A DNA stretch of 64,000 nt from assembly GCF_016461825.1 (NCBI RefSeq), contig NZ_JAEMNU010000113.1:164071-228070 (forward strand). The letters are read 5' to 3'. The notes below the pieces were generated by a model. The model worked only from the letters and a program-made list of their open reading frames with translations, was not told where the DNA came from and did not search any database. The translations under genes were made by a program, and so were the position numbers. The DNA is from Rugamonas violacea. GTDB taxonomy: Bacteria; Pseudomonadota; Gammaproteobacteria; Burkholderiales; Burkholderiaceae_D. Shown piece by piece: positions 15,446 through 64,000 of this stretch (the stretch's first letter is position 1; every line of letters starts with the position of its first letter).

Positions 15446-26429
<10,984 letters not shown>

Positions 26430-46522: not shown

Positions 46523-46535
46523 GCTGTCCACTCCA

Positions 46536-47264
46536 TCAATTGGCGCGCGCGCTGCGCTCAGCCCGGCCTTCCTGCAATTCTTTGTCCACCAGCGCGTTGA
46601 TCACCTGGATCGTGCTTTTCTGCTCGAAAGCATCGCGCTTCTCGGTGCCGCGCACAAAATTGCTGACGCGCTCGTACAGGCTCGGCGTCTTGTGGAAGTA
46701 GAACGGCGCCGTCATATATTTTCCGCCAACGAACACGGTGGGGATCTGGCCGATGCGGTAGCGCTCCTCCATCGCCACGGCGGCGGCGACGCGCGCATCG
46801 ACGTCGGCCGAGCGGTAGGCGGCGATGAATTTCTGCCGGTCGAGACCTTGGGCCGCCGCGAAATCGAACACCTGCTGCTCCTTGCGCAGCTTGTTGCCGT
46901 CGGCGTGAATCGCCTTGAACACCGCGCCGCGCAAGGCCTCGCCCTTGCCCAGCGCCTCCAGCGTGTAATACAGCCGCTGATGGACGTCGCCTTTTTTACC
47001 GAACGCCACATGCACACGTTTGATCGCCACCTCGTTCGCACGCGGCGCCGCCCAGGCGTTCAGCATCGGATCGAAGATATTGCAATGCGGGCAAGGGTAG
47101 GAAAAGAATTCCAGCACTTCGACCCGGCTGCCCATATCGGTCTGGTGCGGCACGCGCACCATGGAAAAATCGACCGTGCTCACCGGCGCCTCCGGGCTGG
47201 CGCCGGCGACCCCGAGCACGCCGCACAACAGCGCGGCGCTCAAGACAGAATGGATATGGCGCAT
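46536..47264 (-). CDS. DsbA-like periplasmic thiol oxidoreductase
   Basis: A signal peptide (likely cleaved near GVAGA) is followed by a thioredoxin fold with the CPHC active site (FFSYPCPHCNIFDP) and the cis-Pro loop (GQIPTVFVGG), both typical of DsbA. The start at 47264 has AAGGAG 6 nt upstream; an upstream in-frame ATG at 47279 overlaps the exporter stop and its codons contain that ribosome-binding site. DsbA proteins form disulfides in exported polypeptides. A dedicated copy inside an NRPS operon, between the exporter and the thioesterase, is unusual. It may act on the peptide product or on an envelope partner (inference). Confidence 0.88.
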   Translation of the reverse strand: MRHIHSVLSAALLCGVLGVAGASPEAPVSTVDFSMVRVPHQTDMGSRVEVLEFFSYPCPHCNIFDPMLNAWAAPRANEVAIKRVHVAFGKKGDVHQRLYYTLEALGKGEALRGAVFKAIHADGNKLRKEQQVFDFAAAQGLDRQKFIAAYRSADVDARVAAAVAMEERYRIGQIPTVFVGGKYMTAPFYFHKTPSLYERVSNFVRGTEKRDAFEQKSTIQVINALVDKELQEGRAERSARAN

Positions 47265-47275
47265 GGCAAGCTCCT

Positions 47276-48898: not shown

Positions 48899-49196
48899 CG
48901 TCCACCTTCCGCAATCATCAAAAATTGATCCGCTGTCGGCAGCTTGCAAGGCACTCAACAAATGCCTGCGCCGCTCCCCCCTGGATGCCACCGATGCCTC
49001 TTACCGCTTGCAAATTGAATGTGACTAATGTGATATATCTTGCATTGCCGAAAGTTTAACGTTGCTATATAAGGAAAGTAAATATACAAATTGAAAAAAT
49101 TTCTTTGTTGTAAAAAAGAACATTTTCAATAGGATTATTTGCAAATATCACAAGATTTGCTGATATGCTCCGACTTACTTTCGCCTTATTACCCAC
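48899..49196. promoter_or_regulatory. Divergent promoter region of biosynthetic operon and TonB receptor
   Basis: A 298-bp gap, strikingly AT-rich between 49020 and 49160 compared with the surrounding coding DNA, separates the exporter and receptor starts. It should hold both promoters. No convincing 19-bp Fur box was found by eye. Confidence 0.55.
49141..49160. promoter_or_regulatory. Inverted repeat, candidate operator
   Basis: GCAAAT, 8 nt, ATTTGC: a perfect 6-bp dyad 36 bp before the TonB receptor ATG, at the edge of the AT-rich stretch. It does not match a Fur box. The bound protein is unknown. Confidence 0.3.
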
Positions 49197-51374
49197 ATGC
49201 CCCGCTACCGCTACCCGCCGTTTTCAAGCTTCACCCTGACCGGGCTGGCTCTCTGCCTACAGTCCGCCTTGCATGTCCATGCCGCCGAGAGCGAGACGCC
49301 GATCCAGATCGAAGTGCGCGGTTCCGCCACGCAGTACGACGCGCGGCGCGAGGACACCTCGACCCGCATCGTGGTCACCCAAGAGGAAATCCGCAAATAC
49401 GGCGACGGCACCCTGGCCGACGTGCTGAAGCGCCAGCCGGGCATCTCGATCAGCGGTGGCGCGGCCGGCCGTGGCGGTGAAATCCGCATGCGCGGCCTGG
49501 GCGCCGGCTATACCCAGATCCTGCTGAACGGCACGCCGGCGCCGGGCAACTTCACGCTCGACTCGCTGGCGCCCGAACTGGTGGAAAAAATTGAAATCCA
49601 GCGCGCCGCCACGGCCGACTTGAGTGCGCAAGCGATCGCCGGCAGCATCAACATCATCCTCAAGCGCAAAGTGCAGAGTGCGCAACGCGAGCTGAAACTC
49701 CGCGCCGAGCATTCCAACGTATTCTTTTCGCCCGGCGCGACGCTGCAAATGTCCGACAAGGCCGAGCGCATGTCGTACACCGTCGGTGCGGAAGTGCGCA
49801 ATGGCCGCTTCGAACAGGCTTACGAACAGCTTGAGGATGGCTGGGATGGCGCCGGCCGCCAGGTGTTGCAGCGCAAGGTCGCGCGCCAAAACAATGGCAG
49901 CTTCCGCTCACTGTCGCTGACGCCGCGCATCAACTGGACGCTGCGCAACGGCGACACGCTGAGCTGGCAATCGTTCGTCCGCTCGCAGCGTTCGCATAGC
50001 CAGTCCGAGGGCACGTGGAGCGCCACCCCGGCCGAGGCCCTGCCCGCCTATCCCTTCGACCGCAGCCGGCCGGAAGATCAGCGCAGCCAGCTGCGCACCG
50101 ACTTGACCTGGAACCGCACGTTGGAGCAAGGCCAAAAGCTGGAAGCCAAGTTCGGCCTGGACGCCGGCCGCCAACGCAGCCGCGAGCACGATGCCGGCTA
50201 TGGCCAGGCGCGGCAGCCGAGGCTGGACCGCGACGTGCGCAATGCCAACGACGGGCGCGGCGCCACGTCGACCGGCAAATACAGCGAGACCTATGAGAGC
50301 GGGCACCAGTTCAGCGCCGGCTGGGACGTGGCGCAGCAGTCCAGCGAGGTGGCGCGCGATAGCCTGGAAACGCTGGACCCGGGCGCCGCGCCGACGCCGG
50401 AGCAGCGCCGTTACGACGCCACGCTGCGCCGGCTGGCCGTCTACGCGCAAGACGAATGGAGCATCACGCCGCGCTGGTCGACTTACCTGGGCCTGCGCTG
50501 GGAATCGCGGCGCAGCCGCAGCGCCGGCAGCGACTTCGGCGCCATCGGCAACGCCACCAATGTGCTGAGTCCGATCATCCAGAGCTTGTGGAAACTGCCC
50601 GACAGCAAGCAGGATCAGCTCCGCCTGGCGCTGAGCCGAACATACCGTGGCGAAGACCTGGAACGCCTGATGCCGCGTGTGACGCGCTCGCTCAACAATA
50701 GCCAAGTGGCGCCCGACCGCACCGGCAATCCGGCGCTGCAACCGGAGCTGGCATGGGGCATCGACGCCGCGCTGGAACGCTACGGCAGCGACGGCGCCCA
50801 GATGAGTGTTGCCGTGTACGCGCGCCGGATCAGCAATTACATCCACGACGACACCAAGCAGGTGCAGGGACGCTGGCTTGCCCTGCCCGTCAACGATGGT
50901 CGTGCGCAGTCGCGGGGAATCGAATTCGACGCCAAATTCCCGCTGCGCAGCCTGCTGCCGACGGTGGACAAGGTCGATATGCGCTTCAATCTGACGCGCA
51001 ACTGGTCCAGCGTCAGCAATGTGCCGGGGCCGGACAACCGCCTGGCCAGCCAGACCCCGCTGACCGCCAATGCCGGTCTCGATTACCGCTTCAATGCAAG
51101 CGTCAGCGGCGGCGCCAACTTCACTTACCGCAGCGGCGGCCCGCAGCGCCTTTCCGCCAGCACCAGCAGCTATTCCTCCGTCAAGCGCGAGCTGGACATG
51201 TATGCCCTGTGGAAGCTGGCGCCGCGCGCCCAGTTGCGGGTGACGGCGGTCAACCTGCTGGCCGAGCCGGCCACCGAAGTGACACGCTACACGGACTCCG
51301 GCGGCAGCTTGCGCAATACCGCCGTCTACCCATTCAGCGCCATATTGCGGCTGACGCTGGAGCTGCAATTGTGA
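49197..51374 (+). CDS. TonB-dependent outer membrane receptor
   Basis: This 725 aa protein has a signal peptide (cleaved near HVHAA, residue 30) and a short TonB-box-like stretch (PIQIEVRGS). A plug domain follows (TRIVVTQEEIRKYGDGTLAD; IRMRGLGAGYTQILLNG; AGSINIILKR) and then a long beta-barrel ending LRLTLELQL. There is no N-terminal signalling domain, so it is a plain importer and not a sigma-regulating transducer. Such receptors bring ferric siderophores, other metal complexes or glycans into the periplasm using ExbB-ExbD-TonB energy. Its divergent position next to the exporter and NRPS operon, near exbB and exbD, suggests uptake of the cluster's own product in metal-bound form. Substrate identity is inference. 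Confidence 0.92.
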   Translation: MPRYRYPPFSSFTLTGLALCLQSALHVHAAESETPIQIEVRGSATQYDARREDTSTRIVVTQEEIRKYGDGTLADVLKRQPGISISGGAAGRGGEIRMRGLGAGYTQILLNGTPAPGNFTLDSLAPELVEKIEIQRAATADLSAQAIAGSINIILKRKVQSAQRELKLRAEHSNVFFSPGATLQMSDKAERMSYTVGAEVRNGRFEQAYEQLEDGWDGAGRQVLQRKVARQNNGSFRSLSLTPRINWTLRNGDTLSWQSFVRSQRSHSQSEGTWSATPAEALPAYPFDRSRPEDQRSQLRTDLTWNRTLEQGQKLEAKFGLDAGRQRSREHDAGYGQARQPRLDRDVRNANDGRGATSTGKYSETYESGHQFSAGWDVAQQSSEVARDSLETLDPGAAPTPEQRRYDATLRRLAVYAQDEWSITPRWSTYLGLRWESRRSRSAGSDFGAIGNATNVLSPIIQSLWKLPDSKQDQLRLALSRTYRGEDLERLMPRVTRSLNNSQVAPDRTGNPALQPELAWGIDAALERYGSDGAQMSVAVYARRISNYIHDDTKQVQGRWLALPVNDGRAQSRGIEFDAKFPLRSLLPTVDKVDMRFNLTRNWSSVSNVPGPDNRLASQTPLTANAGLDYRFNASVSGGANFTYRSGGPQRLSASTSSYSSVKRELDMYALWKLAPRAQLRVTAVNLLAEPATEVTRYTDSGGSLRNTAVYPFSAILRLTLELQL

Positions 51375-51440: not shown

Positions 51441-51656
51441 TCAAGCGCCCATGGCTTGGCGCAGCGACAGTGGCCGCATGTCGGTCCAGACTTCGTCCAC
51501 ATACGCCATGCACGCCTCTTTCGGGCCGCGCTTGCCGGCCAGGCGCCAGCCTGCCGGCACCGCCTTTTCCGCCGGCCACAACGAGTACTGCTCTTCGTCA
51601 TTGATCAGCACTTCGTACAATGCTTCGACCTCGGTTTGATGTTCAATTTGCGACAT
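51441..51656 (-). CDS. mbtH: MbtH-like protein
   Basis: This 71 aa protein has the family pattern clearly visible: [15 protein letters not shown], and the C-terminal [11 protein letters not shown]. MbtH-like proteins bind adenylation domains in the cytoplasm and are often needed for their solubility and activity. AGGAG lies 5 nt before the ATG at 51656. The frame is open far upstream, but that stretch is antisense-like composition within the peptidase gene. It is the last gene of the exbB/exbD operon, not of the NRPS operon, so it may serve both the large assembly line and the smaller NRPS genes to the right. Confidence 0.95.
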
Positions 51657-51772
51657 ATCTGCTCCTGTATTTCTGGCTGCTAGCCAGCGACGCGAAAAAA
51701 CCTGAGGCGCCACGCCTATCGCGGGCGGCGGAAAAAAGTACCTGCCTGCCCGCCCGGCTAGGGCGGTAAGCA

Positions 51773-54097
51773 TCAATCGATGCTGCGCACCCGCACCGCC
51801 ATCATGCGGTCGCTCCAGCCGCCGGGGCGGCTCATGACGCCAACGGGCCGCGTGGCGGCCACGCCGGGCGGCAAGCCGTAGGTGGTATCGGTGACATGGA
51901 CGCTGACCGGATGCGCGCGCCGCGTCAGCAGTTCCACCCGCAGCGGCTGCGCGCCCATGCCGTAGGCGTCCAGACGCCAGTTGTCGCGCGCATCGCTGCT
52001 GTACACGCGCCCATTGACACTGGCCTGCAGCACCCCGTCGCCCTCCAGCTCCACCGCCAGGTGCGGCGCATTGCGCTGCGAATGGACTCGAAGCACGATG
52101 CGCCGGCCCTCGCCGGCGGCGCTCACGCTGTCGATTTCGATGACTGGCTGCGGCAGCCGCAAATCTTCGCCCTTGCCGGCCCACTGTTTCACATCGTAGC
52201 CGGGGTACAGGTCGGGCAGCACATGCTGGCGCGCGCCGGCACCGAGGATGGCGGCGGCCCAAGGATGCATTTCCGCGTCTTCCGAGGTCCAGACCGGACC
52301 AGGCTCGCCGTCCTGCTGCACATAATCGAGGTGCACTGGTCGCGGATTGGCGGCGTCGAAGCCGCCGGCCCTGCCCGCCACACCCAACAGCAGAACGCCG
52401 GCCGCCAGCAGCGCCGCGCCGCACCAGCGTGGCCAAGCCGCCAACGCCGCGCTGCACAGGCCCATGGTCAGCACGATGGGCAGCACGCAGACCGCCAGCA
52501 TGGCCGGCGGCAGTGCCGCGTGAAGCGTGGCGATCAATGGCGTCATCAGCAGAAGCGCCGGCAGCAGTCCGAAAAATTGCAGCGCCGGGCGCGCCGCCGG
52601 CCGCACCGCGCCGCACAGCAACCACGCGACCGACAGCAGCAACGCGGCCAGCGGCCAGGCCAGCACAAAGGTGGCGCCGGGCGCCGCCACGGTGGCCGCC
52701 AGCAGCAACGCGCCCCAAACCAACGCGGCGCCCAGTGTCAGTTCCAACACCCGCAGCCAACGTCCCAACCAGCGCAGCATCAGCATGGCGCCGCCGCACG
52801 CCAGCAGGCAGGCGCTGCCCAGATACCAGTACGAGTCCTTCAGAAATCGCGCCAGTTCGCGCTCCGCTTGCAGCTGGCCGCCGGCCAACCAGGCCAAATG
52901 CACCAGGCCGGCCAACAAGGCCAGCAGCGGCAGCCAGGCCAACGCCGCCAGCAGCGTGCGCCACGGCCGCGCCTCGCCCTTGCGCACGGCGAGCACCAGC
53001 ACCCCGGCCAGCGCGCACAGCACCAGTACCGTGATGGCCGTGGCCCACGCCGCCGGATAGGCCATCAGCCAGCGCCCGGCCAGATCGAAGTAGACGCTGT
53101 CGCCGCCGGCCAGCGCGCTCAGGTCGGCATCGCCGAAATGCCGCGCCAGCGCCAGCAGACTGTCGCCGTGCTGCTGCAAGGCCGCCTGGTCCAGCGCGGA
53201 CGGCGTATCCTGTTCGCTGTGGTAACGGTGGGCGCCTTCGATCGCCGCGAAATTCAGGCCGGCCATGCCGGCCCGGCGGAAGGCGCCCATGTCGGTGGGA
53301 TTGCCGAGGAAGCGGTAAACCTCATACATCAGGGAATTGGCATGGACCCGTTGTAGCGTGCGCAAGCCGCCGATCAGCTGTGCATTGCCGGGGCTGGTTT
53401 CGAACAGCAGCATGGGACCGCCATTGCCGCGGTATTCGAAGTTCAGCGCCAGGCCGACGTCGCGCGCCCACGGGTGGGCTTGCACGAATGCTTCGGCGCC
53501 CAGGGAATTGACTTCCTCGCCGTCGCTGAACAGCACGATGATGTCATTGCGCACGCTGGCGCCGGCGCGCAGTGCGCGCAAGCCTTCGATGATGGCGGCG
53601 ACGGCGGCGCCATCGTCGGCCGCGCCGGGCGACACGGGCACCGTGTCGTAGTGCGCCACCAGCAGCAGCGCCTTGCCGGGCCTGCTGCCGGGCAGACGCG
53701 CCACGATGTTGTGCACCATCCCGGCCGTGTAATGATCGGTGCCGATACTGAAACTGCTTTGCACCTGGGGCGACCAGCCCTGCGCCGCCAACTCGCGCAC
53801 CAGTTGCGCGCGCACCTCGGCATGGGCGCCGCTGCCGGACGGGTGCGGCACGCGGGCTATGCCGGCCAACGTGCGCATGGCGCGTTGGGCCGAAAACACG
53901 CCCGGCGGCGCGTCCACGCCGGCCGGCGCCGCGCGCCAATTGGTCAGCGCCAGGATCAGCGCGATGGCGACGACGGCCATCAACGCAAGGGCCGGCCGGA
54001 ACGGATAGACACTTGCTTCAGCCGCGACACCGCGCTCCGCCGGCCGCGCCCGCATAGACGCCGACGACGACGGCGCTTCCACCACTTGGCTGCTCAA
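51773..54097 (-). CDS. M28-family metallopeptidase with multi-pass membrane region
   Basis: This 774 aa protein has an N-terminal helix (about 36-52) and then an M28 zinc aminopeptidase domain. Candidate metal and catalytic residues are in [24 protein letters not shown] and HRYHSEQD. After residue 350 come about eight hydrophobic helices and a C-terminal soluble domain, a layout like vacuolar membrane proteases. The active domain is probably periplasmic. The start is a TTG at 54097 with GGAGG 4 nt upstream; an internal ATG at 54055 is the alternative. In an operon with exbD, exbB and mbtH, it may trim the peptide or process an envelope partner; the substrate is unknown. Confidence 0.85.
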
Positions 54098-54167: not shown

Positions 54168-55409
54168 TCAGCCGGGGGGCCGGTCCGCCGCCAGCAGCAC
54201 GGAATAAAAGGTCAAGCCCACGCTGTTGTACAGTTTTAACAGCACGGTATTGCGGCCCTGCCGCAAATGCACACGGCGCCGGCCCTCACTCAAGTTCATC
54301 CCGGCGATATCGTCCTTCAGGTTCAGGTAAGGCGTGCGGTACCAGCGCTTGTCCTCGTTTCCGCTCTGCCAGACCAGCCGGTCGTTCAGCCACAGCATCG
54401 AATCATCGTCCGCGCCTATCATTAACCACAAGTCCCGTTCGCGCTCCATGTACACCTCGGTGTAGGCGTAATACACGGCGTTTTCCGAACTGTCCGGCGG
54501 CACTCGCGGATAGGCGGGTCCGCTGACGTATTGCCATTGCAGCAGGCGGCCGGCCTGGCCACGGTAGACGCCGTCCAGGTCGACCACTCTCTCGGGCGGA
54601 TAGTCGCGCGCCATGCTGGCCGCACCGGCACCGGCGAAGGGGCCGATCAGATACCAGGCGTCGAGGTAAACGCGGTCGGCATAGGCAGCCCCGGCGCCGG
54701 CCTTGCGGCCATAACCCAGCCGGGCGCTGCCGACATCGAAGCTGGGCGCCAACACGCCGTAGTGGCGCGCGTCGCGGAATTTGGCGCCGCTCACGTCGGC
54801 GGTCCCGCCCGGCGCCGGCGCGGGCGCCGCCTCGGACAAGGCTGCGCCGCCGGCGCCAACCGCGCCGCGCCCCGGCACGCCGGGCAGCGGCACACCGTCG
54901 CGGCGCTGCGCCAGTTGCAGCTGGCGGCGCGCCGCCAACTGCCGCGCGCGTCGTTCGAGCTGCGCCACCGTCTGGGCGACGCCGGCCGGAGGCGCAGACA
55001 CCGGCGCGGCGCGGTCGGTTTCCCGCACCTGCCTTAAGGCTTGCGCCAGCGGGATCGCCAGCAGGCCCGCCAATTCCCGGGCGCGGTCCGCCTGGTCCGC
55101 CTGTTCGATCGCCCGCAACAGCGCCTGGGCCTGCGCCAGCGCATCTTGCGGCTGCGCCGCCGGGGGCGGTACGGCGGCGTTGGCATCGAGGCTGCGCAAC
55201 ACCGCCGCCATCGATTCGACCTGGCGCCGCAGCGTCAGCTGGCCGGCGCGCTGCTCGGTCGCTTGCAGACGCTGCCGCTCGGCCGCTTGCCGGCTGTGGC
55301 CGTCCTGCAGCGGCCCATGCCAATACAAGCCCGCCGCCAGCAGCGCATGGGCGGCCAGTGAATAGGGCAGGTAACGGCGCCAGCCCGCGCCGCCGGCCAG
55401 ATCGCTCAT
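54168..55409 (-). CDS. Membrane-anchored protein of unknown function, partner of ExbB/ExbD
   Basis: This 413 aa protein has a short cytoplasmic start, one hydrophobic helix at about 14-30, and a long Gln/Arg/Ala-rich, likely coiled-coil periplasmic stretch to about residue 190. A C-terminal beta-rich domain follows (DAWYLIGPF; WLMIGADDDSMLWLNDRLVW; GRNTVLLKLYN). That domain is reminiscent of PA14 or carbohydrate-binding modules. The ATG at 55409 overlaps the exbD stop in an ATGA, so the two are translationally coupled. It occupies the place where tonB would be expected, but no TonB C-terminal domain is recognisable. Function is unknown. Confidence 0.65.
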   Translation of the reverse strand: MSDLAGGAGWRRYLPYSLAAHALLAAGLYWHGPLQDGHSRQAAERQRLQATEQRAGQLTLRRQVESMAAVLRSLDANAAVPPPAAQPQDALAQAQALLRAIEQADQADRARELAGLLAIPLAQALRQVRETDRAAPVSAPPAGVAQTVAQLERRARQLAARRQLQLAQRRDGVPLPGVPGRGAVGAGGAALSEAAPAPAPGGTADVSGAKFRDARHYGVLAPSFDVGSARLGYGRKAGAGAAYADRVYLDAWYLIGPFAGAGAASMARDYPPERVVDLDGVYRGQAGRLLQWQYVSGPAYPRVPPDSSENAVYYAYTEVYMERERDLWLMIGADDDSMLWLNDRLVWQSGNEDKRWYRTPYLNLKDDIAGMNLSEGRRRVHLRQGRNTVLLKLYNSVGLTFYSVLLAADRPPG

Positions 55410-55834
55410 GGCGAATCGAGCGTGCGCAAGGCGATGTTGACCAAGCCTTCGAACTGACACAATTCCACCACCCGGACCACATGCTGGTAGGACGCGCGGC
55501 GGTCGCCATCGATGCGCACCCGGCGCGTCGGGCGGGCCGCCGCTTCCGCCCGCAGCAGCTCATGCAGCGCCTGCGCCGAAACCAGCGTTGCCGCCACATA
55601 GACTTTACCGTCGCGCGCCACCGTCAACACCAGCGGCGCGCTGGACTGCTCGCCGGCGTCTAGCGAAAAGTCGGCCGCAGGCAGGACGATCGGCAGCTCC
55701 TTCTGTTTGCGGTGCATCTCCTGTTGCTTGAACGAGGTGGCCACCATGAAAAACATCAGCAGGAAAAAAATGCAATCAATCAGCGCCACCAGGCTGATTT
55801 CCGGCTGCTCTTCGTCCCCCAGGTCAATGCGCAT
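55406..55834 (-). CDS. exbD: ExbD/TolR-family biopolymer transport protein
   Basis: This 142 aa protein has a short N-terminus and then a single helix carrying the key Asp (ISLVALIDCIFFLLMFFMVA). A periplasmic domain follows with the usual late motif (VRIDGDRRASYQHVVRVVE). With ExbB it forms the proton-driven motor that powers TonB-dependent uptake. The start at 55834 overlaps the last codons of exbB by 11 bp; the upstream extension of the frame is antisense-like and not used. The exact subfamily (ExbD or TolR) is inferred from the receptor nearby. Confidence 0.88.
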   Translation of the reverse strand: MRIDLGDEEQPEISLVALIDCIFFLLMFFMVATSFKQQEMHRKQKELPIVLPAADFSLDAGEQSSAPLVLTVARDGKVYVAATLVSAQALHELLRAEAAARPTRRVRIDGDRRASYQHVVRVVELCQFEGLVNIALRTLDSP

Positions 55835-56552
55835 GCGGCACCGCCTGCAACACCATGCCTTGCGCGCCGCCGCGCTCAAACGCCTCGGCCGCCGCCTGCA
55901 GGCGCTGGATGGCCTGTTCCAGCGCCAGTCCCAGTGCGGCGACGCGGTTCTTGAAGTAATGGTGCAGACATAGGGCCGGCAGCGCCAGCGCCAGCCCGGC
56001 CGCCGTGTTTATCAGCGCCTTGGAAATGCCGCCCGCCAGCAACGCGGGATCGCCCATGGCGCCGGAGAATGCGATCACGTGGAACGACTCGATCATCCCG
56101 ATCACCGTTCCCAGCAAGCCAACAATGGGGGCGATGGTGGCCACCGCTCCCAGCAGGTAAGCCTTGTGCTGGTGGGCGCGCAATTCCAGTGATGCCAATG
56201 CGGCCGCGCCCTCGCCCGCCGCAGCCGGCGCCGCGCCACGGCGCGCCAACAGGTAGACGATCATGCGCGCCAGCGTGCTGTCGGCATCGGCCACCCGCGC
56301 CTGCAATTCCTCGAACTGCCCGGCCCGCCACAGCGCCAGCGCCTCCTCCAGCAGGGCGTCCGGTGCGATGCGATTGTTGCGCAAATGCAGCAGCCGCTCT
56401 ATCGCCACCGCCAGCGTCAGCAACGACATCACGCCGATGACGATGATCCCCACGCCGCCGTGGGCCAGTTGGCCGACCATGTCCTGCGCTTGCGCCGACG
56501 TGGCCGCGGCTGCGGTCGCGCTGAGGGTGAAAAACCGCAAGGCAATCTTCAT
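55824..56552 (-). CDS. exbB: ExbB/TolQ-family proton channel protein
   Basis: This 242 aa protein has a cleavable-looking N-terminal signal (ending TSAQAQ), a first membrane helix (about 35-55) and a cytoplasmic loop. The conserved second and third helices carry TIAPIVGLLGTVIGMIESF and ALINTAAGLALALPAL. It forms the channel part of the ExbB-ExbD motor in the inner membrane. An internal ATG at 56552 with GGAA upstream is chosen over the longer frame. It is the first gene of the exbB-exbD-unknown-M28-mbtH operon, divergent from the NRPS-D group across a 198-bp gap. Confidence 0.88.
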   Translation of the reverse strand: MKIALRFFTLSATAAAATSAQAQDMVGQLAHGGVGIIVIGVMSLLTLAVAIERLLHLRNNRIAPDALLEEALALWRAGQFEELQARVADADSTLARMIVYLLARRGAAPAAAGEGAAALASLELRAHQHKAYLLGAVATIAPIVGLLGTVIGMIESFHVIAFSGAMGDPALLAGGISKALINTAAGLALALPALCLHHYFKNRVAALGLALEQAIQRLQAAAEAFERGGAQGMVLQAVPHAH

Positions 56553-56653
56553 CGGGCGTTCCAATATACACAAGGTTGCGAAATTTTCAATCCGGTTAGC
56601 CTAACAGATTCCGCCAGGCATGACACGGCGCCCCATCGCTTTTTTTTGCAATA

Positions 56654-56681
56654 TTGACAAAATAAATAGTCAAGGTACACT
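56654..56681 (+). promoter_or_regulatory. Sigma70-type promoter candidate
   Basis: TTGACA at 56654-56659, a 16-bp spacer and TACACT at 56676-56681, 70 bp before the ATG of the plus-strand unit. A TTGAC...GTCAA dyad (56654-56673) overlaps the -35 and spacer and could be an operator. Confidence 0.5.
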
Positions 56682-56750
56682 CGCGATTTTCCGGTCCCGG
56701 CGCCGGTGCCAATCTGCCGCACGGTTCCACCATAACGACAAGGCCGGCCA

Positions 56751-57728
56751 ATGAGACTGCCAGTAGCGCAACCCTGCGTCATCTCGTATCTGCACCATGC
56801 GAATTACCTGGCGGTCGCGGAAACCGACCCGCGCTGCCGCGACCACCTGGTCAATTATTTTTATCAGTTGCATACGCGCCACAATAACGCGCCCGGCGTC
56901 GGGCCGGAACAGCTGGTCGATTTCCACAGCCCGGACGGCATGTATCCACGCTATCCCTTCGTCTCCAATGCCTACCTGGGGGCGCCCCTGCTGCAGCGCT
57001 TGGGCGGCGGCATCGTCGAACAGGCTTGCGCCATATTGGACAACGGCGCCTATATCGAGGCCACCCTCGATGAATTTTTTCTGCGCGAAAAAAACGCTTA
57101 CCAGAGCCAGTACTATCCCCATCCGAATCTGCTGTTCGGCTATTCGGCGGAGTCCCGGGTGTTCCATGCGCTGGGTTTTAACCGCGCCATGGCCTACACC
57201 GAATATGCCATCGGCTACGACGAAATGCGCCAGGCGTGGAACCAGCGCATGGGGCTGTCGATCCTGAGCCTGGCGCCGACCGGCGACTACCTGAACACCC
57301 AGCCGTTCAATCCGGCGCTGGTAAGGACCTGCCTGCAAGACTTCCTGGCCGCGCGCAACAGCTTCCTCAGTTACGACCCGCCCGGTAGCGTCTTCGGTCG
57401 CGCCACCTATGCCGAGGCGGTGGCCATGGTGGAGCGCAAGAATGGCGCGGCCATCGATATCCGCCCGTGGTGCGTGTTTCACGAACACAAGCGCCGCCTG
57501 CTGGCGCTGCATGAGTTCCTCTGCGACGGGCGAGAACGCCAGCCCGCCGCTGGCACGGCAGCGCTTCTGCTGCAGCTGGTCGGCCATTTCCATCAGCTGC
57601 GCAATCACTTGCTGGAAGCCTGCTGGAGCGGCGCGCAGGTCAAGCGCGCCGCGCTGGAAAAAAATGTCGGACGCATCGAAGCGATCGAAGAAGAAGCGAT
57701 CGGCGCGCTGATTGCCGCGCTGGACTGA
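56751..57728 (+). CDS. Protein of unknown function in NRPS context
   Basis: This 325 aa cytoplasmic protein has no signal peptide or membrane helix. I do not recognise the family with confidence. The stretch VEQACAILDNGAYIEATLDE followed by FFL, and then HPNLLFGYS, loosely recalls papain-fold proteins of the BtrH type, but no clear Cys-His pair can be assigned. AAGG lies 7 nt before the ATG. It is first in a plus-strand unit, 19 bp before the small NRPS gene, so a role in loading, modifying or transferring that protein's substrate is plausible. Confidence 0.7.
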   Translation: MRLPVAQPCVISYLHHANYLAVAETDPRCRDHLVNYFYQLHTRHNNAPGVGPEQLVDFHSPDGMYPRYPFVSNAYLGAPLLQRLGGGIVEQACAILDNGAYIEATLDEFFLREKNAYQSQYYPHPNLLFGYSAESRVFHALGFNRAMAYTEYAIGYDEMRQAWNQRMGLSILSLAPTGDYLNTQPFNPALVRTCLQDFLAARNSFLSYDPPGSVFGRATYAEAVAMVERKNGAAIDIRPWCVFHEHKRRLLALHEFLCDGRERQPAAGTAALLLQLVGHFHQLRNHLLEACWSGAQVKRAALEKNVGRIEAIEEEAIGALIAALD

Positions 57729-57747
57729 ACCCTGCCACAGGATCCCG

Positions 57748-60495
57748 ATGAACCTTCCTCACTTGCTGCAATGCGCACGACGAGCCGGCTGGCGGCCCCG
57801 CACAGATGGCGCCAATTTTGCTGTCATCGCCGATATGGCCCTGCGCCGCCGGCTAGAACAGGCCGGCGCGCAGATCGAAGACATCCTGGCCTGCCCCGCG
57901 GCGGCGCACCGCGCGCCGCCCGCGACGCCGGCCGCAGACGCCGCGACGCCAGTCCACCCCACCCTGCCGTTCGACCATCCGCCCGGCGCGCCGGCCGCGC
58001 CGGCCCATCATGGCTTCACCATCGGCGCCGATCTGAGCGCCGCCTTGCGCGGACTCGGCGCTGGCGACGCACTGCCGCTGCTGGCGGCCTGCCGGCTGTT
58101 GCTGTCCCATTACGACAGCGCCCGCACCATCGTGCTGGCCATGCCGGTGTATGGCGCGGCAGACGCCGACTGGCCCCATGGCGCGCGCGCGCCGGTGGCG
58201 CTGGCCTGGCGCAGCGCCACGCTGGAGCGCAGCGACGACTGCCACGCGCTGCTGCGGCGGCCATTGGGCGCCGTCGCGGCCGATGGCGCGGCCAATGGGG
58301 CGGCCAATGGGGCGGCCAATGGGGTCGCCGCCATGCTGCTGGACCTGCCAGGTTTGCTACCCGATGTCGCTGGCGCGGACGCCGCACCGCCCTCGCCCGC
58401 CACCTCGCCCGACACCGCCTCCGGCGCCCAACTGGCGCTGCGCATGGTGCCCGGCGCCAGCTGCCTGTACGCCTGCTTCGAATATGACAGCGCCCGCTTC
58501 AGCGCCGACACCGTGGCGCGCCTAGCCACGCAGCTGCAAGTACTGCTGGCCGCGCTGTGCCAAACGCCTGGCCGCAATGTGCACGAACACTGGCTGCTGG
58601 ATGCGCAACAGCAGTGCCAGCTGGCCGCCTGGAACGCGACGGCGGCCGTCATGCCGGTGGCCGATGTCCATGCCGCGTTCGCCCGGCAAGCGCGCCGCAC
58701 GCCGCACGCCGCCGCGCTTCGCTGGGCCGGAACGAGCATCAGTTACGCCGAACTGGAACAGCGTGCCAGCCTGCTGGCGCAGCGGCTGCGCCAAGCCGGC
58801 GTGGCGGCCGAATCGATCGTCGGCGTGTGCCTCGAACGCGGACCGTGGCTGCCGATCGCCCTGCTTGCCATCCTCGCGGTGGGCGGCGTGTATTTCCCGC
58901 TCGACCCGTCCTACCCGCCGCAGCGCCTGCGCCTGATGCTGGACGATGCCGCCCCAGTCCTGGTGCTGAGTGAGAGTGGCGTCCTGGCGCGGCAGGGCGC
59001 CACCAGCGCCGGCTGGCGCGATCTGGAACAAGCCTGGCCCCTGCCGGCGCTCGCGCTCACTCCCGAGCCGCAGAAAACCGCCGCGCTCACGGCGCCGGAC
59101 CGGCTGGCCTACCTGGTCTACACCTCGGGCTCGACCGGCCGGCCCAAGGGCGTGGCCGGCACGATGAAGGCGCTGGCAAACCGGCTGGACTGGATGCACG
59201 GGCGCTTTCCATGCCAGGTCGGCGAGCGCTGCGCGCAAAAAACCTCGATCGGCTTTATCGATTCGCTCACCGAAGTGCTGACACCCTTGCTGGCCGGCGG
59301 CACGCTGTCCATCCTGGCGGCGCACCAGACCCAAGACACCGACGCGCTGTGGGAGGCGCTGCAAACAGAACGCATCGAACGGCTGGTGCTGGTGCCGTCG
59401 CTGCTGCGCGCAATGCTCGACAGCGCTCCGGCGCCGCTGAGCCACAGCCTGAAGCTAATCGTCAGCAGCGGCGAGGCGCTGCCGCCGCCGCTGGCGCAGC
59501 AGGCGCTGCGGCGCCTGCCCGGCGTCACCCTGCTGAATTTGTACGGTTCGTCCGAAGTGGCCGGCGACGTCAGTTTCCATCCCTGCCAGCCGGGCGCGGC
59601 CAGCGTGCCACTGGGCCGCCCCGTCGCCAACACGGCGCTGTACCTGCTCGACGAGCAATTGCGCCCAGTGCCACCCGGCGCCCAAGGCGAGCTGTACGTG
59701 GCCGGCGCACATCTGGCGCGCGGCTACCTGAACCGCCCCGGACTGACCGCCGAGCGCTTCATCGCCGCCCCCTTCCACTTGCCGTTCGCCGGCGCCGGCG
59801 CACGCCTGTACCGCACCGGCGATCTGGCGCGCCAGCACGCCGACGGCAGCATCGAGTTCTGCGGCCGCCAGGACAGCCAGGTCAAGGTCAACGGCGTGCG
59901 CATCGAACTGGGCGAGATCGAGAGCGCCCTGTCCGCCCTGCCGGGCGTGCGCCAGGCGCTGGTGCTTGCCCATGCCGATGCGCGCCACGGCGTCCAGCTG
60001 ACCGCCTATGCCGCCATGGCCGGCGACGGTGATGGCGGCGATGACGGCGGTGGCGGTGGCGGTGGCGACGGCAACGGCGGTGGCGCCGCGCGGCTGCGCG
60101 CGCAGTTGGCTGAGCGCCTGCCGGGCCATATGCTGCCGGCCCACTTCATCATCCTGCAACGCCTGCCGTTGCTAGCGAATGGAAAAATCGACCGCTTGGC
60201 GCTGCCCGCGCCATCCGCCGACGGCGTGCCCTACGCGGCGCCGCGCAACGACGACGAAGCATGGCTGGCCGGCTTGTGGGCGCAAACCTTGGGCCGCGAC
60301 CGGATCGGCGTCGACGACGATTTTTTCGCCTTGGGCGGACACTCACTGCTGGCCATGCAAATGCTGGGTAAGATCCGCCAGCGCGGCCGCACTGCCACCC
60401 TGCACACACTATTCGAAGCGCCCACCGTGGCGCGCCTGGCGGCCGCCCTCAACACGAGCGCCAGCGCGCCGCACACCTTGCTGCAATGGGACTGA
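57748..60495 (+). CDS. Small NRPS: degenerate C-A-T, unusual A domain
   Basis: This is a 915 aa protein. Residues about 85-300 resemble the C-terminal half of a condensation domain but lack the HHxxxDG motif, so it is probably not a working C domain. The A domain (about 310-830) has YTSGSTGRPKG, YRTGDLAR and NGKIDR. Its pocket starts FIDSLTEVL, so the Asp that normally holds the alpha-amino group is shifted one place; I read IDTVVSLGDK, similar to the beta-alanine code. T has Ser866. The A8-A9 hinge carries a Gly/Asp-rich run, and an NGAA-type repeat lies in the C remnant. The Met at 57748 with AGGA upstream is chosen over an upstream in-frame start. No thioesterase is present. It probably loads a beta-amino acid for another protein. 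Confidence 0.9.
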   Translation: MNLPHLLQCARRAGWRPRTDGANFAVIADMALRRRLEQAGAQIEDILACPAAAHRAPPATPAADAATPVHPTLPFDHPPGAPAAPAHHGFTIGADLSAALRGLGAGDALPLLAACRLLLSHYDSARTIVLAMPVYGAADADWPHGARAPVALAWRSATLERSDDCHALLRRPLGAVAADGAANGAANGAANGVAAMLLDLPGLLPDVAGADAAPPSPATSPDTASGAQLALRMVPGASCLYACFEYDSARFSADTVARLATQLQVLLAALCQTPGRNVHEHWLLDAQQQCQLAAWNATAAVMPVADVHAAFARQARRTPHAAALRWAGTSISYAELEQRASLLAQRLRQAGVAAESIVGVCLERGPWLPIALLAILAVGGVYFPLDPSYPPQRLRLMLDDAAPVLVLSESGVLARQGATSAGWRDLEQAWPLPALALTPEPQKTAALTAPDRLAYLVYTSGSTGRPKGVAGTMKALANRLDWMHGRFPCQVGERCAQKTSIGFIDSLTEVLTPLLAGGTLSILAAHQTQDTDALWEALQTERIERLVLVPSLLRAMLDSAPAPLSHSLKLIVSSGEALPPPLAQQALRRLPGVTLLNLYGSSEVAGDVSFHPCQPGAASVPLGRPVANTALYLLDEQLRPVPPGAQGELYVAGAHLARGYLNRPGLTAERFIAAPFHLPFAGAGARLYRTGDLARQHADGSIEFCGRQDSQVKVNGVRIELGEIESALSALPGVRQALVLAHADARHGVQLTAYAAMAGDGDGGDDGGGGGGGDGNGGGAARLRAQLAERLPGHMLPAHFIILQRLPLLANGKIDRLALPAPSADGVPYAAPRNDDEAWLAGLWAQTLGRDRIGVDDDFFALGGHSLLAMQMLGKIRQRGRTATLHTLFEAPTVARLAAALNTSASAPHTLLQWD
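58282..58326. repeat. 12-bp tandem repeat in small NRPS
   Basis: Three to four copies of GCGGCCAATGGG encode Ala-Ala-Asn-Gly units in the degenerate C region of the small NRPS. Confidence 0.9.
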
Positions 60496-60500
60496 ACACC

Positions 60501-62102
60501 ATGCCTGCCAACGATTTCGCCGACAATCCCATCGTCTACTGCCTCATCACGGACCGCTTCCACAACAGCCGTCCGGGCCGGCCGCCCAGTTACGGCCGCC
60601 TGGGCGACCCTGCCGCCTTCGGCACTTTCCACGGCGGTGATTTCGCCGGCGTGCGAGCGCGCCTGGAGGAAGGCTGGTTTTGCCGCCTGGGTGTCAACGC
60701 GCTGTGGATCAGCGCACCGTATGAACAGATCCACGGCTGGGTGCCGGGCACCAACGATGAATTCCGCCACGAGGCCTATCACGGCTACTGGCCGCTCGAT
60801 TTTACGGTGCCCGACGCCAGCTTCGGCACCGAGCAGGAGTTCCAGGCCATGGTAGACGCAGCCCACGCGCGCGGCATCAAGGTGATTCTGGACGTGGTAT
60901 TGAGCCATGCCGGCTACCCCGACCTCAACACCTTCCAGCAATTCCTGCCAGGCGCGGTGCGCGCCGGCTGGGAACAGGCCGGGCCGGCCGAATTTGACGA
61001 CTACCTCGACACCGCCAGCCCCGCGCTGGCCGACTGGTGGAGTCCCGACTGGGTCTGCGCCAAGCTACCCGGCTACGATCCGGGCGGCGACGATGATTTG
61101 ACCCGGCTGCTGTACGACCTGCCCAAATTCCGCACCACCGAAACCCGGCCGCTACCGCTGCCGCGCTTCCTCAAACACAAGGCCGGCACGCGCGCCGTCG
61201 AACAGCCGGGCCAGACGGTGCGCGGTTATCTGGTCGGCTGGCTGGCCGATTGGGTGCGCCGCTATGGCGTGGACGGCTTCCGCTGCGACTCGGCCAAGCA
61301 TGTCGAACTGCCGGCCTGGCAAGCGCTGAAACAAGCGGCGACGCAGGCGCTGTCCGCCTGGCAAACCGATCACGGCGTCGCGCCGGTGCCGTTTTGGATG
61401 ACCGGCGAAGTGTATGGACACGGCATCGAGCGAAGCGCCTACTATGAACACGGTTTCGACAACCTGATCAATTTCGACTTCCAGCATGAGGCGCGGGCGC
61501 TGCTGGAGCAAAGCGACACGCTGGCCGGCGACAGCCTGGCGCTGTTCCGCCTCGAACGGCTGTACGCGGCCTATGCCGAGCAGTTGGCGTCGGCGCGCCA
61601 CAATGTGCTGTCCTACCTGTCCTCCCACGATACCGAGTTGTTCTCGCGCGATCGACTGATTGATGGCGGCACCGTGCTATTGCTGGCGCCGGGCGGCGTG
61701 CAGATTTATTACGGCGACGAGAGCGCCCGCCCAGCCGGCATGGCCAGCCCCAGCGATCCGGTGCAGGCGACGCGCTCGGACATGAACTGGGATACGCTGG
61801 ATAGCCAGGTGCTGCGCCATTGGCAATTGCTGGGCGCCTTCCGCGCCCGCCATGTGGCGCTGGCGGTTGGCCGGCACCGCCGCCTGTCCAGCACACCTTA
61901 TGCATTCCACCGCCACCATGCCAAGTCGGGCGACCAGGTGGTGGTGGCCATCGGCCAGCCCGGCGACGTCACGCTCGACGTGGCCGCCATCTTTGCCGAC
62001 GGCCAGGTGCTGCGCGACGCCTATACCGGCGAACGCGTGACCGTGCGCGCCGGCTGCGCCGCGCTGCGCATGGACCAAGTGCTGCTGCTGGAAGCCATCT
62101 GA
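60501..62102 (+). CDS. GH13 alpha-amylase-family enzyme
   Basis: This protein of about 533 aa is a GH13 (beta/alpha)8 enzyme. The catalytic residues are readable: nucleophile Asp263 in GFRCDSAKH, acid/base Glu303 in TGEVYG and transition-state Asp377 in SSHDTEL. The early GVNALWIS and VILDVVLSH motifs are also present. There is no signal peptide, so it is cytoplasmic, unlike secreted amylases. An ATG at 60486 overlaps the NRPS-D stop; the ATG at 60501, right after that stop, is used here. Either start means coupling to NRPS-D. The family cuts or transfers alpha-glucosyl units, so it could glycosylate or handle a sugar for the metabolite, or be a passenger gene. Its true substrate is unknown. 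Confidence 0.88.
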   Translation: MPANDFADNPIVYCLITDRFHNSRPGRPPSYGRLGDPAAFGTFHGGDFAGVRARLEEGWFCRLGVNALWISAPYEQIHGWVPGTNDEFRHEAYHGYWPLDFTVPDASFGTEQEFQAMVDAAHARGIKVILDVVLSHAGYPDLNTFQQFLPGAVRAGWEQAGPAEFDDYLDTASPALADWWSPDWVCAKLPGYDPGGDDDLTRLLYDLPKFRTTETRPLPLPRFLKHKAGTRAVEQPGQTVRGYLVGWLADWVRRYGVDGFRCDSAKHVELPAWQALKQAATQALSAWQTDHGVAPVPFWMTGEVYGHGIERSAYYEHGFDNLINFDFQHEARALLEQSDTLAGDSLALFRLERLYAAYAEQLASARHNVLSYLSSHDTELFSRDRLIDGGTVLLLAPGGVQIYYGDESARPAGMASPSDPVQATRSDMNWDTLDSQVLRHWQLLGAFRARHVALAVGRHRRLSSTPYAFHRHHAKSGDQVVVAIGQPGDVTLDVAAIFADGQVLRDAYTGERVTVRAGCAALRMDQVLLLEAI

Positions 62103-62125
62103 CGGCGCGGTGCCCGGCGCCGCAC

Positions 62126-63247
62126 TTATTCGAACTGGGCCAGCAACTCCCGCAACAGGGCCAGTTCGGCGGCGCGGATCGGTGCCAGCAAGGCCTGGCC
62201 GGCCGCCGGGCCGCTGCGCAGTTTGATATTCACCAGCGCTTTCCAGTCATCGGCCAAGGCGCGCGCCTGCAGTTGCAGCGCACGTTGCGGCACCTCATGC
62301 CCATGCACCTGCGCCGCCAGCGCCGCCGCGCAGACATACAAGATGGACTGGCTGTTCAGGTAGGCCAGCACCAGGCCGGCCGCCTCGTCGGCGCCTAGCT
62401 GGGCGGTCAGGCTGGCATGGATATGCAGCACGGCACTCAGCTTGGCGTCCATCAGCGCATCGATGGCCTCCAATGCCTGCAACAGGTGCGCGCGCAACGC
62501 CGCCGCCACTTCCGGCAGCGCCGCCGCTTGCCTTCCCGGTATGCGCGACATGACTTGCAAATCGCCCGACGGTCGCCCGCCGCCGCCGGGACCATGCAAA
62601 CGGTGGTAATACTGGACGCTCAGCGCGTGTTCGTAATAATTGCAGTGCACATCGCCCAGTAAATCGGTCAGCGCTTCGCTCTGCGCATGGGCCGGATCGA
62701 ACAGCAAGGCGGGGATCGGCGTCGCTTCCTGTGCGCCGTCGCGGCGCAGGCGGATATTTTTCCCGACGAAGCAATTGACTTTTTTTACGAACGGCAGCAA
62801 CTGGGTATTCCCGAACAGCACCAGGTTGCCGCTGGCTTCGTGGCAGCCTTTCACCACCAACAGGTCCAAGCCATGCAAGCCATTGATGGCGTGCGACACA
62901 AAGAAGTTCTTCATGGCCGGCACCAGCACGGGATGGCCTTGCCGCACATGGGATGCCATTTGCGCCAGCAAGTCTTCCTGCGCCGGCTGCGCGCTCAGGC
63001 GCAAGCCCAGCCAGCGCTCCAGCACCTGTTCTTCGAAAATATCCAGGTAGGCGATCGCCGAGGGCCGCAAATCCGGCCGCGCCAGCGGGTAGTGCAAGCC
63101 GGCGTAATACATCGCCATCAAAATGTCGAAATGCAGCGGGCCGAAGGCATTGCAAGCGTGCGCCCGGGCCAGCTGCTGGCAGTACAGGCCATCATGCGCA
63201 TAGGTCAGCCCGTTGACCAGGGGATGGATACTGTCGATTTCTATCAT
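62126..63247 (-). CDS. Protein of unknown function downstream of an NRPS
   Basis: This 373 aa soluble protein has no signal peptide or membrane helix. I do not recognise the family. A central stretch (HVRQGHPVLVPAMKNFFVSH) and the preceding region have the rhythm of the unknown protein at 56751, but no clear homology can be claimed. The C-terminal third is helical and Ala/Leu-rich. AAGGA precedes the ATG at 63247, and it lies 28 bp after the stop of the partial NRPS, so the two are co-transcribed. It converges with the GH13 gene across 23 bp. Confidence 0.7.
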   Translation of the reverse strand: MIEIDSIHPLVNGLTYAHDGLYCQQLARAHACNAFGPLHFDILMAMYYAGLHYPLARPDLRPSAIAYLDIFEEQVLERWLGLRLSAQPAQEDLLAQMASHVRQGHPVLVPAMKNFFVSHAINGLHGLDLLVVKGCHEASGNLVLFGNTQLLPFVKKVNCFVGKNIRLRRDGAQEATPIPALLFDPAHAQSEALTDLLGDVHCNYYEHALSVQYYHRLHGPGGGGRPSGDLQVMSRIPGRQAAALPEVAAALRAHLLQALEAIDALMDAKLSAVLHIHASLTAQLGADEAAGLVLAYLNSQSILYVCAAALAAQVHGHEVPQRALQLQARALADDWKALVNIKLRSGPAAGQALLAPIRAAELALLRELLAQFE

Positions 63248-63275
63248 GGGTTTTCCTTGTCAGCTGGCCCGGGGC

Positions 63276-64000
63276 TCAGCATTCGTCGTATTCGTCCAGT
63301 TGGTCGTCCGCCACGCGCGCCGCCGCCAACGCGCGCGCCAGCGCGGCCACCGTGGCATCCTCGAAGAACGCCCGCAGCGCCACTTTGACGCCGCAGCGCT
63401 GCCGCACGGCGGCCAGCAGCGCGGTCGCCAGCATCGAGTGCCCGCCCAATTCAAAGAAGTCGTCGAGGCGGCCGACCCGTGGCACATCCAGCACTTCACG
63501 CCACAGCTGGGCCAGCAGCTGTTCCAGTTCGCCCTGCGGCGCCGCGTATGGCAGCGCCGCCGTGGCCGCCGCTTCCGGCGGCGGCAGCGCCTTGCGGTCG
63601 ATCTTGCCGTTGGCGGTCAGCGGCAACGCCGCCAACGCCATGAAGGCGGCCGGTATCATGTAGTCGGGCAGCAGCGCGGCCAGCGCCGCGCGCAATGTCG
63701 GTGGCGGCGTCGCCGCGCCATCGGCCATCACCACATACGCCAGCAGACGCGCCTGCTCGCCGCTCTCGGCCACCACCAGCGCCTGGCGTACGCCGTCGCA
63801 GCCCAGCAAGCGCTGCTCGATTTCCCCCGGTTCGATGCGGAAGCCGCGCAGCTTGATCTGGTGGTCGTTGCGGCCGGCGTAGGCCAGGTCGCCATCGGCG
63901 CGCCAATAACCCAGGTCGCCGCTGCGGTAGAGCCGGCGCATGCCTTGGCCATCCGGGTCGGCCCACACGAAACGCTCGGCATCCAGTTCCGGCCGTTCGA
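63276..64000 (-). CDS. NRPS, 3' end only (A domain C-terminus and T domain)
   Basis: The reading frame is open to the right edge of the window, so only the last 240 or so residues are visible. They hold the end of an A domain (ERPELDAERF, YRSGDLGYW, IKLRGFRIEPGEIEQ, LPDYMIPAAF, NGKIDRKALP) and a T domain with FFELGGHSML, its Ser codon at 63434-63436. The protein ends VADDQLDEYDEC with no thioesterase domain. It starts a minus-strand unit with the unknown protein at 62126. Substrate specificity cannot be read because the pocket lies outside the window. Confidence 0.92.
   Translation of the reverse strand, partial: ERPELDAERFVWADPDGQGMRRLYRSGDLGYWRADGDLAYAGRNDHQIKLRGFRIEPGEIEQRLLGCDGVRQALVVAESGEQARLLAYVVMADGAATPPPTLRAALAALLPDYMIPAAFMALAALPLTANGKIDRKALPPPEAAATAALPYAAPQGELEQLLAQLWREVLDVPRVGRLDDFFELGGHSMLATALLAAVRQRCGVKVALRAFFEDATVAALARALAAARVADDQLDEYDEC

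Follow-up and report, generated by a model that had tools for sequence, protein, structure and literature searches.

Putative BtrH-like proteins as possible detached carrier-protein partners of two thioesterase-free peptide synthetases in Rugamonas violacea

The window analysed here, 64,000 nt of Rugamonas violacea contig NZ_JAEMNU010000113.1 (164071–228070; positions below are those of the window unless marked as contig positions), ends in a group of genes in which two unrecognised proteins, termed P1 and P2, adjoin genes for nonribosomal peptide synthetases (NRPSs). Butirosin biosynthesis uses an acyl-carrier-protein:aminoglycoside acyltransferase, BtrH (Pfam BtrH_N, PF14399), whose action on an acyl carrier protein (ACP) is described in an excerpt of PMC10318531. 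We think it possible, at a little short of an even prospect, that P1 and P2, of BtrH type and papain-like fold, serve the two NRPSs as detached partners of their carrier proteins. The evidence that carries this reading is the gene layout, the missing thioesterases, a distant relation of the P1 family to BtrH, fusions of P1-type domains to carrier domains, and an enrichment of carrier proteins around P1-type genes.

The genes form two convergent groups (Table 1), with P1, a small NRPS and a GH13 protein on the forward strand and a four-module NRPS followed by P2 on the reverse strand, and the third-position G+C content of P1, the small NRPS, GH13 and P2 is high. The small NRPS may start at a TTG that overlaps P1 (57712) or at the first ATG (57748), 19 bp past the P1 stop codon; the GH13 start overlaps or abuts the small NRPS stop; GH13 and P2 lie tail to tail with 23 bp between their ends; and P2 follows the four-module NRPS co-directionally at 28 bp. 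Promoter-like sites, recognised by consensus match only, number three in 56400–63300 against 0.8 expected, and the one on the P1 side stands back to back with another that faces the ExbB gene. The original prediction, in which two unrecognised proteins each adjoin an NRPS gene with GH13 between them, agrees with this layout, all of the genes being present where it had placed them, while the neighbour order that it gave is corrected to P1 upstream of, and P2 downstream of, its own co-directional NRPS. The sequence past 64 kb, to which it had pointed, completes the supposed partial NRPS, of which the window holds the 3′ end, as a 4,332-aa protein that reaches 12.3 kb beyond the window to contig position 240344. 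A GT4 glycosyltransferase gene, divergent from the NRPS, begins about 380 bp past the NRPS start.

Some NRPS and polyketide synthase (PKS) lines have no recognisable release domain, and these are such lines. The four-module NRPS is built as four repeats of condensation (C), adenylation (A) and peptidyl carrier protein (PCP) domains, with no other domain found by Pfam at E ≤ 1e-5. The condensation part of the small NRPS covers Pfam positions 392–455 of 456 only (E 0.024, below the cut-off) and is followed by an A domain and a carrier domain; a normal elongation module was considered for this protein and dropped, its condensation domain being a stub. Pfam finds no thioesterase domain after the last PCP of either synthetase. 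Specificity codes were read from alignments anchored on Ser- and Thr-type domains that also lie in this window. The code of the small NRPS is IDTVVSLGD, which we take to be of the β-alanine type by its likeness to the code VDWVISLADK, a weak assignment. Those of the four-module NRPS are, in order, DATKVGEVG, DATKVGEVG, DGGVVVGVY and DILQVGAIW, one letter of the last having fallen on a gap in the code table and been taken from the underlying alignment; by their codes, modules 1 and 2 may activate Asn and module 4 Gly, a weak prediction.

In database searches P1 and P2 stayed below every Pfam cut-off, had no NCBIfam or PDB match and only insignificant PHROG matches (best E 0.37 for P1 and 0.088 for P2), and neither fell into a housekeeping family, in keeping with the original view of both as unrecognised. 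The P1 sequence alone detected only its own genome among 60 related ones, a 28-sequence P1 profile matched in 1/398 genomes of the window's phylum, again through the window's own gene, and scans of viral contigs found no relative. Relatives do occur in Paenibacillus. A tblastn search of plasmids found two, one of Paenibacillus cellulosilyticus and one of Paenibacillus sp. 37 (P0001), and a genome-wide pattern scan with the P1 family gave a single relative, in P. cellulosilyticus. Around the P. cellulosilyticus protein are AMP ligases, a methyltransferase and carrier proteins that stand free; the gene next to that of Paenibacillus sp. 37, in divergent orientation, belongs to an NRPS line of four genes, the last protein of which has a PCP at its end. 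A three-sequence profile (E ≤ 0.001) found P1-type matches in 6/6 genomes comprising P. cellulosilyticus and five congeners, at 17, 10, 16, 8, 5 and 10 per genome.

Profile-profile comparison of the P1 family (46 proteins) with five BtrH proteins (L043, L044, L046, L047 and L048; L045, missed by the choice of open reading frames (ORFs), and the partial L049 were left out) results in an E-value of 8.6e-6 over 256 columns, the helical part included. The comparison used 30 profiles, namely 26 gene families of the same loci, two of which are the BtrH and P2 sets again, together with BtrH, a six-member fused-type set (L082, L084, L085, L086 and L087, which are fused, and the stand-alone L081), P2 and GH13; outside the BtrH and fused-type sets the best profile for the P1 family reached E 0.076. 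By Pfam, BtrH_N is found at E ≤ 0.01 in 10/28 members of the P1 family (best 9.1e-6), and the Paenibacillus sp. 37 relative matches it at E 1.7e-4, with 22.3 bits against a curated cut-off of 29.7. BtrH_N itself is present in 7/143 genomes of the class. The BtrH-type histidine that precedes the G-Y-D strand is held as His124 by P1 and by 35 of the 46 proteins, an Asp or Asn at position 107 by 38/46, and in the helical part His246 is found in 45/46, Lys247 in 43/46 and Gly216 in all 46. In the fused-type set the histidine is present in 6/6 and a cysteine stands at a BtrH-like place in 5/6 (not in L086). P1 is thus BtrH-like in descent yet fails BtrH membership on the nucleophile, no cysteine standing at a fixed place.

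Seven large proteins bear a P1-type domain near the C-terminus, behind a carrier motif: L082–L085, which are four alike, L086, L087 and L088. The Pfam scan of L082, L086, L087 and L088 (L083–L085 resembling L082 in length and motifs) found a carrier domain in 4/4, BtrH_N over the cut-off in L082 and L086, and no thioesterase match in any of the four. L082 and L086 are PKSs in which the final carrier domain is followed by BtrH_N (E 1.7e-7 and 8.1e-8, respectively). L087 consists of the second half of a condensation domain (192–455), an A domain, a PCP and a P1-type domain without a Pfam BtrH_N match, and L088 of an A domain, a PCP and a P1-type domain with BtrH_N at E 0.0043, below the cut-off; the code DILQLGM[IV]WK, presumably Gly-like and not used here, recurs in both of these fused modules. 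The half condensation domain of L087 is real, because the gene opens with a start codon that an in-frame stop precedes, and acyltransferase-like and FkbH-like genes stand before it. L087 is thus the closest parallel, a single chain that holds much of what P1 and the small NRPS split over two genes; these two genes look like the fused A-PCP-domain proteins known from Paenibacillus-type genomes, divided in two. An earlier view that L087 and L088 both share the C-stub of the small NRPS was withdrawn, L088 being cut by its contig end and only L087 having a true start. Stand-alone P1-type genes also follow synthetases closely, 28 bp behind an NRPS (L101) and 42 bp behind a PKS (L097), both synthetases ending 8 aa past their last carrier domain.

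We also note that L082–L085 and L086, from Paenibacillus-type genomes, carry the BtrH_N-type domain at the very end of the PKS, the usual place of a thioesterase, and that at L093 and L100 four and three P1-type genes, respectively, are clustered with small carrier-like proteins.

The neighbourhoods of P1-type genes were compared with those of 34 control regions hand-picked in the same genomes, each locus being counted with a single P1-type gene and the 8 kb on either side of it. The 40 P1-type loci derive from the six-genome matches, without those that were short and partial and without L088, where the domain occurs in fused form only; L089 and L090, adjacent pieces of one contig, are counted twice, and some loci share a contig. 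Carrier proteins lie within 8 kb at 20/40 P1-type loci and 3/34 control regions (p 1.3e-4), and a carrier, A or ketoacyl synthase (KS) domain at 23/40 and 6/34 (p 7e-4), with the reservation that related genomes do not yield independent loci. A looser count, which cast a wider net at the P1-type loci than at the controls, gave carriers at 21/40 against 3/34 and any of the three at 24/40 against 6/34, and a first count without weak small carriers gave 22/40 P1-type loci. Small carrier-like ORFs, among the matches listed, were at P1-type loci in 20 of 20 cases. Two of the 18 loci that were carrier-free on the first pass, L093 and L117, later gave a small carrier; 70 of the 189 neighbours of those 18 loci were scanned and, among the best 25 of 82 families, none occurred in more than 4/70. 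The link of P1-type genes to carrier proteins is strong; it is not universal, because at 17/40 loci the 8 kb on either side held none of the three domain types.

P2 alone was found in 1/74 genomes of the genus and its profile in 1/398 genomes of its phylum, in each case its own, and in 0/6 Paenibacillus-type genomes; among 392 family genomes the profile gave its own and three short weak matches (E 6.6e-4, 0.004 and 0.008), which we do not count as relatives, and a genome-wide pattern scan with P2 found nothing. Its relatives are plasmid-borne: Enterobacter and Pantoea share one identical protein, Deinococcus has another, and the copy in Klebsiella is partial. The Pantoea relative follows genes for a carrier protein and an acyl-CoA dehydrogenase, the Deinococcus relative has a carrier protein 8 kb away, and the Enterobacter copy has IS26 in the carrier position, with no carrier gene annotated nearby. 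After its own family, the best of the 30 profiles for P2 were the fused-type set and those of BtrH, at E 0.0017–0.0031 (the next being 0.044) and with probabilities of only 10–15%. In the reverse direction the probability was 7.7% with BtrH, and the fused-type set reached 26.8% at E 0.0007, the E-values of the BtrH sets overall being 0.0017–0.0045. Cys23, which lies in a GL-x-C motif, is the same in 3/3 aligned proteins, as is a G-x-PVLVP stretch, and hhalign places it, in a weak match, on the BtrH cysteine. We take P2 to be probably, though not certainly, BtrH-like.

In the mechanism that we propose, the A domain of the small NRPS would activate one amino acid, of β-alanine type if its code is read correctly, and load it onto the PCP; P1 would bind this loaded PCP and help to move the aminoacyl group to an acceptor. 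P2 would take the peptide off the last PCP of the four-module NRPS via Cys23, onto water or an amine. P1 and P2 would in this way stand in for the missing thioesterases, and both pairs may act on one product.

Several observations weigh against P1 and P2 being BtrH-type partners of the NRPSs. P1 has no Pfam family even at E ≤ 1, comparison of its family profile with solved structures gave nothing significant (eight chains lie at E 0.11–0.64), and AlphaFold models of P2 alone and of P1 with one relative have predicted local distance difference test (pLDDT) scores of 41.6 and 43.4, too low for use. Within the P1 set no cysteine occupies one fixed position, only 11/46 proteins having any cysteine in the zone and the sole one of P1, Cys9, not being aligned with the BtrH cysteine, and the histidine is absent from 11/46. 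The P2 matches to BtrH carry probabilities of only 8–15%, against 27% for the best match to the fused-type set, direct BLAST and hidden Markov model searches of P2 against BtrH are not significant, and the histidine position holds Asp in the window, His in Pantoea and Lys in Deinococcus. Neither window protein thus has an intact Cys-His pair, because P1 is without the cysteine and P2 without the histidine. P1 family and P2 are not significantly similar in direct or profile comparison, and the idea that they form one family was dropped for that reason. Among the fusions, the L087 domain is of the Cys type and not of P1's type, and L088, the fused protein with a P1-like Cys-less domain, begins at its contig end with its front missing.

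The lost cysteine of P1 argues for a docking role or for other chemistry. P1, and perhaps P2, might then be non-catalytic BtrH relatives that dock or gate the loaded carrier and steer it to a partner, with no acyl-enzyme formed. The stand-alone P1-type proteins, without a nucleophile and yet with a well-kept helical C-terminal part, would suit this, as would the L087 locus, where the fused domain is of the Cys type and a P1-type gene that stands alone is Cys-less; nevertheless, His124 and Asp/Asn107 are conserved beyond the needs of a dead scaffold and P2 keeps its cysteine throughout its aligned relatives, and we hold this explanation to be somewhat unlikely. A harsher view would make P1 and P2 unrelated accessory proteins that landed near NRPS genes, their likeness to BtrH being superficial. 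P1 alone has no family match, the link of P2 to BtrH is weak and carriers, A and KS domains are missing around 17 of the P1-type loci, all as this view would have it, but it leaves out of account the fusions behind carrier domains and the neighbourhood enrichment, and in profile comparison BtrH ranks first against unrelated families; we regard it as quite unlikely. The original suggestion of a functional set stands in part. Through its family, P1 is tied to carrier-protein enzymes by the fusions and the neighbourhood count, and the P2 relatives of Pantoea and Deinococcus, unlike the Enterobacter copy, lie near carriers; GH13 sits between the other genes and is tied to them by position only, its conserved partner, GT4, lying outside the window.

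A wider proposal, which we rate as rather unlikely, is that BtrH-fold proteins may form a widespread and unrecognised alternative to thioesterases, fused or detached at the ends of NRPS and PKS lines and including a Cys-less branch (P1) with other chemistry; a Cys-less and a His-less member would here serve two synthetases without release domains, possibly as complementary halves. If the P1 and P2 families do the work of the missing release domains, the 'hypothetical proteins' that give 5–17 matches per genome in six Paenibacillus-type genomes would gain a testable role, the products of release-less clusters could be better predicted, and a small detached transfer enzyme could serve to extend peptides by amino acids. 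Any activity of the Cys-less members would rest on chemistry other than that of BtrH. A literature search for BtrH with NRPS or release gave, among the matches listed, no paper in which P1-type proteins are described as partners of an NRPS.

The GH13 protein is a family member by PF00128 (93.3 bits against a cut-off of 22) and by its catalytic motifs. An assignment as a MalS-type periplasmic α-amylase (NCBIfam PRK09505) was rejected, the best score being 524 bits against an equivalog cut-off of 790. Close copies (E below 1e-100) occur, among 60 genomes including its own, only in G028 and G027 besides its own. GH13 and GT4 genes adjoin one another in L040 and L041, with GH13 49 and 53% and GT4 44 and 44% identical to those of R. 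violacea, the L040 pair lying beside genes for HlyC-like and HlyD-like proteins and a C39-peptidase ATP-binding cassette (ABC) exporter and the L041 pair beside an HlyC-like gene, a setting that looks microcin-like in these two congeners. A separate observation, read from the sequence of L041, is a possible new microcin candidate, a small ORF (L041:7607–7966, reverse strand) whose leader is of the double-glycine type and whose tail is rich in Ser and Thr; HlyC-like genes and the GH13 and GT4 genes are close by. GH13 and GT4 could be a sugar-tailoring pair recruited by the R. violacea cluster, as by the microcin-like clusters of related genomes, and the recurrence of their adjacency beside HlyC-like genes favours this; in R. 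violacea, though, the two are parted by P2 and a 13-kb NRPS and lie on different transcripts, and a role in storage polysaccharide is as likely. We give this explanation something less than an even chance, and GH13 and GT4 may or may not act on the NRPS product. Beyond the GT4 gene, an RHS-type repeat protein was read from the sequence at the contig end (L003:4995–7082, reverse strand).

Table 1. Features of the P1–P2 gene group and its neighbours (window positions).
Feature	Position	Strand	Remarks
Type II thioesterase-like gene	45758–46531	-	Read from sequence; next to lipopeptide line
DsbA-like gene	46536–47279	-	Read from sequence; next to lipopeptide line
ABC exporter	47276–48991	-	Pfam; adjoins lipopeptide line
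TonB-dependent receptor-like gene	49197–51374		Read from sequence; near MbtH-like gene
MbtH-like protein	~51441–51660	-	Read from sequence
M28 peptidase gene	51773–54097		Beside MbtH-like gene
430-aa protein	54168–55460	-	No Pfam match; between M28 peptidase and ExbD-like genes
ExbB/ExbD-like genes	55406–56573		Read from sequence
Promoter-like site TTGACA-16-TACACT	56654–56681	+	Upstream of P1; consensus match only
P1, 325 aa	56751–57728	+	Putative BtrH-like family without the BtrH cysteine; His124, Gly130, Gly216, His246-Lys247
Small NRPS, ≤927 aa	57712–60495	+	C-terminal condensation stub followed by A domain and PCP; lacks a thioesterase; specificity code IDTVVSLGD(K)
GH13 α-amylase-family protein, 538 aa	60486–62102	+	Motifs DVVLSH, GFRCDSAKH, LSSHD
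P2, 373 aa	62126–63247	-	Putative distant BtrH-like protein; Cys23 kept, histidine position Asp
3′ end of four-module NRPS	63276–64000	-	End of last A domain, last PCP; runs on to contig position 240344

Upstream in the window lies a large lipopeptide line (8678–45688, reverse strand), read from the sequence as a FAAL-like start, an NRPS, a KS-bearing protein and an NRPS; three of its adenylation domains have the code DLYDFSLVW in common. The original prediction took the P1–P2 group to be separate from this line, a view that is not supported; the group may or may not stand apart. The last lipopeptide-line protein (8678–15535) ends in a PCP and an acidic tail (...DLTGLTAQQLKQLLEQED), with no thioesterase, and the four-module NRPS starts, by eye, with a basic helical head (...IEVLRRELLLRRLGKS...) before its condensation domain; the latter could thus receive a chain, the acidic tail docking on the basic head. 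It is conceivable, with somewhat less than even probability, that the lipopeptide line has its downstream end in the four-module NRPS and that the whole P1–P2 group belongs to that one pathway, with P2 releasing the joined product and the small NRPS adding a residue in trans. Consistent with this, both proteins end without a thioesterase, the DLTGLTAQQLKQLLEQED tail and IEVLRRELLLRRLGKS head resemble the tail and head at a junction inside the lipopeptide line, and MbtH-like, ExbB/ExbD-like, TonB-receptor-like and exporter genes lie between the two. The match of tail and head was made by eye only, however, and about 48 kb, in which other gene groups lie, separate the two genes.

Among known systems, the type I thioesterase of NRPSs offers a positional parallel, the fused P1-type domains holding its C-terminal place, and differs in that the scanned fused proteins have no thioesterase match. 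The transglutaminase-like protein AdmF of andrimid synthesis joins carrier-bound groups. Excerpts of PMC13151354 and PMC3826127 apply the label TG (transglutaminase-like) in andrimid synthesis, and the likeness, drawn from description only, is that of a papain- or transglutaminase-type protein beside a stand-alone NRPS step. DarE of the dialkylresorcinol clusters is listed as a 'BtrH-like peptidase' in an excerpt of PMC3949708; similarly, the true BtrH_N proteins L043, L044 and L046 adjoin ketoacyl-synthase-like genes, by reading, although these three keep both Cys and His and the window proteins do not. 'New_papain' and BtrH transacylases, predicted to be of papain fold, are described in part of PMC2922099 from ACP-bearing peptide-ligase operons, beside ACP and acyl-CoA dehydrogenase genes, a setting shared, as far as the description allows comparison, by the Pantoea relative of P2. 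BtrH itself differs from P1 in its Pfam match and catalytic cysteine, from P1 also in that the partner of P1 is an NRPS A-PCP protein, and from P2 in that P2 has the cysteine and no histidine; it is nevertheless BtrH with which the P1 family can be aligned over 256 columns, and P1-type genes are enriched beside the carrier proteins on which a BtrH-type enzyme would act.

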